A stretch of DNA of 35,741 nt from an uncultured Bacteroidia bacterium (GTDB lineage Bacteria; Bacteroidota; Bacteroidia; Bacteroidales; UBA932), in the NCBI GenBank assembly GCA_902788175.1, contig CADAJF010000021.1, positions 1 through 35,741 of the forward strand. The letters are read 5' to 3'. The position numbers were made by a program, and so were the translations under genes. The notes beneath the pieces are model-generated. The model was not told the DNA's origin. It worked only from the letters and a program-made list of their open reading frames with translations, and ran no database searches. This document shows, piece by piece, positions 1,845-3,345 of the stretch; within the stretch, counting starts at the first letter, position 1, and the number at the start of each line of letters is the position of its first letter.

Positions 1845-2090
1845 CCGGGGGGCACACGATAGCCAATTCGCCCCCCGAAGCCACCTGGAACGTGGCCGCG
1901 GGGCACTGGAGGGGCGTTTTGCCCCCGGAGCTCAGCAGAGACCTGGTCCGGGGGGCGCTGGAGGGGCGTTTTGCCCCCGGAGGTCGGCAGAGACCTGGTC
2001 CTGGGGCACTGGAGGGCCGATTTGCCCCCGGAGCTCAGCAGAGACCTGGTCCGGGGGCGCTGGAGGGGCATTTTGCCCCCGGAACTGCCA
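1845..2090. repeat. Left palindromic repeat array (5 units, ~51-52 bp period) beside the RAYT gene
   Basis: This gene-free stretch holds five copies of a unit built on inverted arms GGGG(GG)C ... GCCCCC(C). The arms pair at 1847-1853/1870-1876, 1900-1904/1921-1926, 1950-1956/1973-1978, 2003-2007/2024-2029 and 2053-2058/2075-2080. Unit starts are 51-52 bases apart. Units 2-5 are very alike, including a linker around CAGAGACCTGGTC. The first unit is more diverged and resembles the right-hand array (3195-3345). The array ends about ten bases from the stop of the transposase-like gene. Short palindromes flanking a Y1 transposase gene are the hallmark of REP/RAYT loci. Confidence 0.85.
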
Positions 2091-2099
2091 GGGAGAGTT

Positions 2100-3008
2100 T
2101 TATGATGAGTTGGGGACGGGGAAGAACTGGTTCACTTGGTCTATCGGAAGGCGAAGGACCTGCGCAACCTGTTTGTTGGAGCTCATCAGCTCTGCTTTCA
2201 TCCGGCGGGCTGCTTCCAGGCGCTGCTCAGGGAGGAGCAGGTTGACTGTCCGGACTTTGTACCAGTCCGCTACTATCCGGAAGACATCCTCATTGGGCAG
2301 TTGGATGCACTCACCTATCCAGCGGGCAGTCTCTGCATCCGCCTCCACTTTCCGCGCCAGCATATGAAAGTATTGCCGGGCCGATTCAAAAAAGGCCTCG
2401 GCCCGCCGATAATCCACAAAACTGGCACGGAGAATAGCGCCATCCAGAACGCGCCAATCCACGGAAAGGACATCTCCCCGGGACTGGGTAATCTTCCGTT
2501 TCTCCCTGTAAGTGAGCTCGTTATAAGACACCCCTGCAGAATAGTAGGAAAGGTTCTCATTGAACATCAGTTGCGCACTGCTCCAGCGGTATCCGGATGG
2601 AGTCACGTCCCGTCCGGCCACATAAGGGTTCCGGAAGATATACAGAATGGCATTCCTCAGGGCCTTTAAATCGCCGATTGCCTTAATCTGTATATCCCAG
2701 CGGGCCAGAGAGGGATTGCCGCGTTTCAGTTGGTATCGGCTCATAGCCTTCCTTAAATGCTCGGTAAAGACAAGCACTTTCTCATACGCTCCTTCCAGCA
2801 GAAAGTGAAGGTGATTGTTCATCTCTACTTCGCCCAGAAGCCTTAGCGGTAAACCCGCCAGCGAGACTGCCGTCATGTTGGTCCCGTCTATAAACTCCTG
2901 CTCGCTTGTGAACAAAAGCCAGGGCAGATTCTCTGTAGTCACCATGTAAAACGGACCTCCCTGCCTAAAAAGACGCTCGCACTCATTTTCTCGTTCCCAA
3001 TATCTCAT
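2100..3008 (-). CDS. REP-associated tyrosine transposase-like protein (RAYT, Y1/HUH family)
   Basis: This 302-residue protein carries the Y1_Tnp (IS200-like) signature. The HUH motif is His66-Leu-His68 in MNNHLHFLLEG. A candidate nucleophile Tyr92 lies in AMSRYQLKRG. The downstream block ILYIFRNPYVAG...YRWSSAQ corresponds to the usual 'yI..NPv.agl...ypwSS' stretch. The last 100 residues end in a helix-turn-helix-like segment (SNKQVAQVLRLPIDQVNQFF), common in RAYTs. Such proteins bind and cut REP palindromes as single strands and are usually domesticated single-copy genes rather than active insertion sequences. Arrays of palindromes lie on both sides. The 'GhlWq.rf' stretch normally following the Tyr is replaced here by RWDIQIKAI, so this is a divergent member. 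The reading frame is intact. Confidence 0.85.
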   Translation of the reverse strand: MRYWERENECERLFRQGGPFYMVTTENLPWLLFTSEQEFIDGTNMTAVSLAGLPLRLLGEVEMNNHLHFLLEGAYEKVLVFTEHLRKAMSRYQLKRGNPSLARWDIQIKAIGDLKALRNAILYIFRNPYVAGRDVTPSGYRWSSAQLMFNENLSYYSAGVSYNELTYREKRKITQSRGDVLSVDWRVLDGAILRASFVDYRRAEAFFESARQYFHMLARKVEADAETARWIGECIQLPNEDVFRIVADWYKVRTVNLLLPEQRLEAARRMKAELMSSNKQVAQVLRLPIDQVNQFFPVPNSS

Positions 3009-3194
3009 AAGCCTTTTTATGCAAAGGAACGCATACTTATCCGTTTTAGGAAATAAAACACGGATAATCGCGAAAAACGCCCATCCAACGCGACAGAAGG
3101 CCGATTCACACCCCCGCCCCCAGCGTTTTTCTGCCCCAAAACCACTATCTTTTCACCTGTCCGGTCCAACAAAAAGAGCAAAAACCTCCCACGC

Positions 3195-3345
3195 CCGGGG
3201 GCACCAGAGCCACATTCTGCCCCCCGAGGCCAACAAAAACGCAGCCGGGGGGCACCAGAGCCCCATTCCGCCCCCCGAGGCCAGAAAAAACGCAGCCCGG
3301 GGGGCAGCAGAGCACCAATTTGCCCCCCCGAGGACAGCAAGAAGC
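3195..3345. repeat. Right palindromic repeat array (3 units, ~50-52 bp period) beside the RAYT gene
   Basis: Three units with arms GGGGG(G)C / GCCCCCC pair at 3197-3202/3219-3225, 3247-3253/3270-3276 and 3299-3305/3322-3328. Loops read ACCAGAGCC.CATTC or similar, and A-rich linkers (AACAAAAACGCAGC type) separate them. The orientation matches the left array: the CAC..GAG..ATT loop reads the same way on the + strand. The remaining bases of 3009-3194 between the RAYT start and this array are AT-richer and hold the RAYT upstream region, with nothing else recognisable. Confidence 0.85.

Follow-up and report, generated by a model that had tools for sequence, protein, structure and literature searches.

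Tandem same-direction arrays of ~51-nt hairpin units beside RAYT-like transposase genes in a genus of Bacteroidales

The window (i.e. the whole stretch of 35,741 nucleotides analysed here) carries the gene of a RAYT-like Y1/HUH transposase of 302 amino acids (2100..3008, minus strand; HUH His66/His68, Tyr123 and a C-terminal extension), which lies between two arrays of plus-strand hairpin units. Five units are situated downstream of the gene (1848..1875, 1899..1926, 1951..1978, 2002..2029 and 2053..2080) and three upstream (3197..3224, 3248..3275 and 3300..3327), with a spacing of 51-52 nt. The five and three palindromic units that the initial annotation had placed around the gene are borne out by these coordinates and by self-matches of the flanks (gene-upstream flank: 48 at lag 51, best of 20 dinucleotide shuffles 12; gene-downstream flank: 64 at lag 103, i.e. 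two units, best of 20 dinucleotide shuffles 14). Its statements that both arrays point the same way (8/8 units alike) and that the units stand in tandem with a period of ~51 bp, rather than being paired as REPINs, hold as well, and the repeating unit is, as it had proposed, larger than the palindrome (28-nt hairpin plus 23-nt linker). The motifs that it had ascribed to all units stand in part: most units possess the GGGGGC..GCCCCC stem, two have CGGGGC and TGGGGC arms instead, and the loop motif CAC..GAG..ATT holds approximately; the linker, described as conserved, is alike inside an array and mostly 23 nt long, while its sequence differs between the arrays.

Across the window's orthologue group the unit is composed of an arm of 6, a loop of 16, a second arm of 6 and a linker of 23 nt (51 nt in all). 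Among hairpins of one shape having a neighbour within 70 nt, 24 spacings were listed, with 21 measuring 51 nt and one 52 nt; the other two (50 at C5 and 29 in L213) concern a different kind of hairpin. Linkers are similar inside arrays and dissimilar between most arrays, and their length hardly varies. Because most arrays start and finish with a whole hairpin, we regard the stem-loop-stem as the module, and not a hairpin with the linker as its loop. In 29 distinct hairpins from five genomes the stems pair in 90.4% of cells, and reach a covariation score of 0.317 (0.135 in shuffles, 0/500 as high; slid versions at most 0.094), with 33 cells changed on both stem sides (15.5 in shuffles, 0/500 as high); for the same 29 hairpins the pairs with any double change (4) and the further pair types (8) were not above shuffles, and covariation within the eight window units alone is uninformative. 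The constancy of the loop (RCYRGNG...TTTT) is partly built in, since the pattern used for collection required it; loops like it also turn up in gene flanks inspected independently of the pattern.

A Pfam search with the window protein returned no family at E 10, and the sole profile matched was NCBIfam REP_Tyr_transpos (weakly, E 0.087, below the family cut-off). Sequence profiles reach other members of the family at E <= 0.1 (REP_Tyr_transpos 31/64, Pfam Y1_Tnp 25/64), and a profile of 64 homologues searched against PDB leads to the ISDra2 transposase (E 0.007). The AlphaFold model of the window protein (mean pLDDT 93.5) has as its best PDB match in Foldseek 4er8 (E 1.3e-4, TM 0.56 by target length), i.e. 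the E. coli REP-associated tyrosine transposase with REP hairpin, and it also matches the TnpA of ISDra2 and IS608 (2xm3, 2a6m; E near 0.01). His66, His68, Tyr123 and Asn127 are invariant in 69 aligned sequences, window included, which upholds the HUH histidines given in the initial annotation and, together with the 4er8 match, supports the RAYT-type identity it had assigned. Its candidate Tyr92, on the other hand, is the wrong tyrosine: position 92 is less than 80% conserved in this alignment, and the tyrosine of the motif (YIFRN) is the invariant Tyr123, which motif and conservation point to as the probable catalytic residue. By its sequence and predicted fold, the window protein thus belongs to the Y1/HUH superfamily (HUH and one tyrosine on a TnpA fold). 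In the model the C-terminal extension (~150 aa, after residue ~150) is mostly helical, and its last two short helices take a helix-turn-helix-like shape that may bind DNA. Two homologues with internal stops (L052 and L102) were dropped from the alignments, and the 64-protein profile set comprises the 69 stop-free proteins minus L103, L108, L119, L120 and L134 (a deliberate omission).

Upstream of the start codon lies a dyad, TTATCCGTGTTTTATTTCCTAAAACGGATAA (3037..3067, minus strand), of the form TTATCCG..CGGATAA. TTATCC..GGATAA dyads are present at 12/87 distinct homologue loci and in 0/63 control windows, and could serve as an operator, perhaps for the helix-turn-helix-like C-terminus. An operator common to the family was rejected, since the dyad is found at just these 12 loci, which belong to closer relatives of the window gene.

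Homologues (E <= 1e-5) occur in 103/121 genomes of this genus of gut Bacteroidales (own included), with up to 12 per genome. The family profile recovered 2/197 genomes of the order at E <= 1e-20, both in this genus, and 46/296 genomes of the phylum at 1e-10; apart from the own genome's two full-length copies, the phylum matches listed fall within profile positions 7-203 of 308, and the match of the own paralogue on C2 reaches position 227 of 308. In a tree of the core, 69 family members stand apart from 28 other Y1 proteins with a support of 0.992, and those relatives that carry a name are MAGs of uncultured Bacteroidales or Bacteroidia, with ruminants as the source of many. The own draft genome (84.5% complete) holds no near-identical second copy of the gene, the next best having 31% identity. 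Two more Y1 paralogues in it (C17:37803-38696 and C2:22338-22940; L042 and L043) are accompanied by unrelated palindromes: units of the CCGTG..GCGCACGG type at some distance from the gene on C17 and, flanking the gene on C2 to either side, 13-bp GCCGCCTTGACAC..GTGTCAAGGCGGC stems whose spacers are longer.

The ~51-nt pitch recurs beside the genes of this family. At 71 loci (the window, the best paralogue and 69 rows of the homologue list, 40 of which were picked in list order with stop-flagged and some other rows skipped) we scored 140 flanks of up to 450 bp each (L070 and L119 having one flank too short), and 78 of them had a repeat score above 16 and above all 20 shuffles. The lag was 50-52 in 64 of the repeating flanks (exactly 51 in 48), a figure that rises to 71 with doubles included. 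A ~51-nt repeat or its double is thereby found on at least one side at 48/71 loci (on both sides in 23 of the 48); at the other 23/71 neither side gave a significant ~51-nt signal within 450 bp, and in 12 of these the upstream and downstream flanks have matches of 20 or more. Control windows 950-1400 bp away exceeded score 16 in 7/124 cases; the four with a lag of 50-52 may represent more distant arrays. The best match between upstream and downstream flank was direct at 39 loci and inverted at 5 (69 loci with both flanks).

Of the 52 loci that score above 16 with a lag of 50-52, 37 possess a stem of 7 bp or more that pairs perfectly (the other 15 have no 7-bp stem), and 34 were significant against shuffled units (p <= 0.05; 2.6 expected). 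The stem feet were of 50 different kinds among these 52 loci; as the pitch is common and the feet nearly all different, the length of the unit appears to be kept while its sequence turns over. A loop motif, AAA..GGC, occurs in 18/37 hairpins (3.8 expected) and, having been picked after inspection, is a lead only. That Y1 genes throughout the phylum share the 51-nt period was rejected, since only one of 28 loci outside the family shows it (L162, lag 52, score 19); the other outside loci above score 16 have lags of 99 (L143), 65 (L148) and 167 (L161). This outside set comprises 27 loci of other genera and one other gene of the own genome, with L003, L159 and L160 left out for want of a gene by motif. 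We also observed ~51-nt arrays in other genomes of the genus that the model of the window units matches weakly, in G009 (C39:46048-46460) and in G097, where units lie on both sides of that genome's own gene (C1:589973-590872; units within C1:589721-590970) and a two-unit array is found at C1:424339-424445.

A covariance model built from the eight window units and searched against the own genome gave 34 matches at E <= 10, with 18 at E <= 5.4e-6 and the next at E 0.0067. The 18 strong matches are the eight window units and ten more at five other sites: C20 (2 units), C8:4796-4952 (3 units), C8:10312-10416 (2 units), C5 (1 unit) and C26 (2 units). The initial annotation had stated that its reading would fall if the palindrome occurred nowhere else in the genome; in view of these ten further units, it is not confined to the locus. 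On reading, the C20 site proved to hold a hybrid unit as well, and C26 a third, degenerate one; the copy number of the units is low. No ORF of at least 120 aa overlaps the arrays at 3/5 sites; the ORFs that overlap at C8a (136 aa) and C26 (519 aa) have no Pfam match, unlike adjacent non-overlapping ORFs (FGE-sulfatase, MFS_1), and the five dispersed arrays therefore look intergenic. The array sites on C8 adjoin synteny breaks, and the species comparisons yielded no clean case of a target-site duplication or a precise empty site. CGTC/TGTC-tagged palindromes (like CCGTCATG..CCGGC) were seen by eye to adjoin 5/5 dispersed arrays of the own genome (C8:4780-4990, C8:10290-10440, C20:20376, C5:49410 and C26:13420) and 4/4 arrays of G614, and were seen at 0/3 arrays of G610 and at none of two of the three sites of G615. 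We rejected them as fixed partners of the arrays, given their absence from the G610 arrays and from the two G615 arrays inspected; a shared landing preference or co-mobilisation is possible. In the excerpts of PMC3733652, CGTC repeats are described as having no dedicated transposase.

The type of stem goes with the resident gene. A stem-agnostic pattern (variable stem positions left free) was applied to seven orthologue genomes (own included, the others having orthologues 56-78% identical), and a reversed-pattern control gave 0 matches in all 7. The own genome has GGGGGC stems in 9/9 matches, G610 and G611 have GTGTGC (7/7 and 2/2), G614 has GTGAGC (8/8) and G615 has GGGAGC (4/5, the fifth being GGGGGC..GCACCC), so that these four orthologue genomes, at 56-78% identity, carry a stem other than the own GGGGGC type. 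G612 and G613 gave no match, because the loops of the units beside their genes are devoid of TTTT. Of the 31 matches, 25 lie away from the gene's flanks (three at a distance of 2-2.5 kb), and 24 of the 25 dispersed ones bear the stem of the local gene's flanks (own genome included).

When extended to 121 genomes of the genus, the pattern was found outside the orthologue genomes in G058 only (2 matches, GGGAGC). G019, which has a 55% homologue, gave no match, and the reach of the pattern appears for this reason to end near 55-56% identity. The initial annotation had also stated that its reading would fall if the palindrome were equally frequent in related genomes lacking the gene, and with the pattern the units go with the orthologue (5/7 orthologue genomes, 1/120 others of the genus); the covariance model at E <= 0.01 recovered units in 19/121 genomes (G009 with 18 weak matches), and showed no real difference between genomes with a homologue (17/103, own included) and those without (2/18), which leaves it indecisive as a test of gene dependence. 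Shared ancestry contributes to the patterns of stem, gene and presence. By the stem type and by the presence of the pattern, the repeat family is specific to its gene; the weak covariance-model matches are less so.

Between close species the arrays differ in presence. The 78% orthologue of G610 (L173) is located behind dnaK, as is the window gene (dnaK 97.8% identical); no dnaK was found within 3 kb of L174, L176 and L177 (67-74% identity), and for L175 the comparison covers 206 bp upstream. Two genes enclose the C20 array of the own genome, and their DNA aligns at 81-82% with G610 C50, where 2.57 kb with other ORFs stand between the flanks matching the own C20 and a two-unit GTGTGC array (C50:29155-29233) is found near the right one. 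We take these two arrays to be homologous, because the bases preceding them are alike (cgccccaacctccGTGTGCAC in G610, cgccccaagttccGTGTGCAC in the own genome). The own array starts with GTGTGCAC...TTTGCCCCC, a GTGTGC/GCCCCC hybrid that is followed by GGGGGC units, and this favours an old-type left arm joined to a new right arm, with GTGTGC as the older type. A second two-unit copy in G610 (C50:22509-22587) runs the opposite way and is bordered by largely the same bases, and the own genome has in its place about 45 bp instead of 185, with the array absent; by eye, the two C50 copies have ~125 bp in common around the two units, with no gene. The G610 C44 array lies inside 3.1 kb with no match in the own genome, where the matching flanks adjoin. 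These differences are ones of presence and absence, and either species may have changed. The array-bearing spacer of G610 is bordered by a strongly conserved stretch (L245 ~2545-2760 in the own C20, L246 in G610 C50) which, from its motif, we take to resemble a cobalamin riboswitch.

Taken together, these observations make it probable, in our judgement, that the locus is part of a REPtron-like system, in which an undescribed, genus-level branch of RAYT proteins spreads REP units as same-direction tandem arrays. Y1 enzymes bind hairpins on one strand, and the two ends of IS608 and of ISDra2 are equally oriented. The protein would probably bind its own hairpin on single-stranded DNA (by a stem that varies with the lineage and a loop that is more constant), and would cut at a fixed place in each unit via Tyr123. 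Since hairpins on the same strand and in the same direction would act as do the ends of IS200/IS605 elements, which share one orientation, any two units could bound an excisable piece; whole multiples of 51 nt would thus be excised and circularise, and pieces of at least one whole unit would pass to other intergenic sites, or into or beside older arrays. Such unit-wise excision and insertion would explain the pitch, the common direction of the units, the occurrence of dispersed arrays of one to three units and the turnover of stems across whole genomes. Binding, cleavage, single-stranded intermediates and movement are steps that we infer, and slippage and gene conversion could contribute to the arrays as well. 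More tentatively, as a reading that we hold possible rather than probable, the repeats may be mobilised through single strands by a ruler, i.e. excised and inserted beside existing units in whole multiples of 51 nt, with drift in specificity overwriting old arrays genome-wide; if so, the GTGTGC/GCCCCC hybrid at C20 would preserve an intermediate stage of the overwriting.

Other explanations were weighed against the same evidence. The protein could be domesticated and immobile, its arrays being binding sites (for autoregulation, as terminators or in the nucleoid) that were spread by recombination and kept for a host function; the low identity of the paralogues, the intergenic appearance of the five dispersed arrays, the dyad before the start codon, the helix-turn-helix-like end of the model and the shared place of the 78% orthologue behind dnaK all speak for it. 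We nevertheless consider it unlikely, as the invariant HUH and tyrosine point to a nuclease activity that has been kept, arrays present in one species are missing from the corresponding place in another, whole genomes differ in their stems, and the orthologues L174, L176 and L177 have no dnaK within 3 kb. Hairpins of equal orientation to either side of the genes (39 direct of 44 matched loci), and orthologues that sit at other places, would also suit a single insertion sequence of the IS200/IS605 kind with multiplied ends, whose dispersed arrays would be solo ends remaining where the gene was lost. This we regard as quite improbable, given that the own draft genome has no near-identical copy of the gene, that the array sites on C20, C8, C5 and C26 gave no protein match at E <= 10, and that the stretch common to the two G610 C50 copies is, by eye, ~125 bp long and without a gene.

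Local duplication and recombination could build tandem arrays independently of the protein, and linkers that are alike inside an array and different between most arrays are what local duplication gives; a hybrid unit fits recombination too, and weak covariance-model matches exist in genomes lacking a homologue. That the arrays arose by nothing more than replication slippage and gene conversion, with the gene as a bystander, is in our opinion highly improbable even so, because a pitch of 50-52 is common beside different genes whose stem feet differ, far windows mostly do not have it, and the presence of the pattern and the type of stem go with the orthologue. A single genus offers dozens of gene-array pairs that have different stems and nearly one unit length, and close species hold old, new and hybrid units in corresponding regions, which amounts (within the few close species compared) to a natural record of joint change in an enzyme and its DNA target. 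Such pairs bear on the questions of how REPs are kept matched to their RAYTs and whether RAYTs continue to mobilise them, and they make swaps of specificity, the pitch and the direction of the units accessible to direct tests with purified proteins and 51-nt oligonucleotides.

By its anatomy the locus is RAYT-like. As in RAYT/TnpA-REP REPtrons, a protein with HUH and one tyrosine is flanked by palindromes of its own family, copies of these are dispersed in the genome and the repeat is gene-specific. Unlike the E. coli TnpA-REP, the protein has 302 aa with a long C-terminal domain, and unlike RAYT/REP systems in general the units are few and have no consistent GT[AG]G foot (by eye over the units listed, GTAG immediately precedes the stem in a single unit, at C26 of the own genome, and in no other). 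The inverted REP pairs of REPINs and BIMEs likewise find no counterpart in the window, nor in most of the family loci matched, where the units follow each other in the same direction. With the IS200/IS605 family (IS608, ISDra2) the system shares the core fold and equally oriented recognition hairpins, and differs in having arrays, not single ends, and in that the own genome lacks near-identical copies of the gene.

RAYT-like genes of Bacteroidetes, the pairing of REPs with genes and specificity per gene are already in print, as the excerpts of PMC6006769 record. Within the same excerpts, TnpAY1 subclass 2.6 (RAYT group 5) is a Bacteroidetes group with 'atypical secondary structures', copies elsewhere and no GT[AG]G, and in host, in structures at the gene and elsewhere and in the missing GT[AG]G the present family resembles it. 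Membership is ruled out, as far as that text goes, by length (median 179 in subclass 2.6, 309 in our 69 proteins), by the distance from HUH to tyrosine (median 82 and 58, the latter from 53/69 proteins, with end points that perhaps differ) and by the tyrosine motif (YIH[QN]NP and Y..RN[G/P/A/K], respectively). Of the class 2 signature Y---NP, the N is invariant and the P occurs in 13/53 motif-picked proteins, the window protein having NP. Subclass 2.1/TIRYT, in the excerpts of PMC6006769 and PMC3733652, offers a C-terminal helix-turn-helix (by profile there, by model shape here) and a common HUH-to-tyrosine range of 58-67 into which our family falls; REP-like sequences are not reported for subclass 2.1 in the excerpts of PMC6006769, and TIRs are inverted, unlike our mostly direct arrays. 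The excerpts of PMC8266576 describe no selected loop base for the E. coli TnpA-REP and essential loop bases in group 3 systems; if the loop is constant and the stem variable, the present family would be like group 3 in respect of the loop. Tandem 51-nt arrays are not described in the excerpts of PMC6006769, and a literature search (most subscription journals and supplements lying outside it) found no paper on such arrays with RAYTs. The RAYT/REP kind of system is itself already known, and what appears to be new here are its tandem, same-direction arrays of ~51-nt units.
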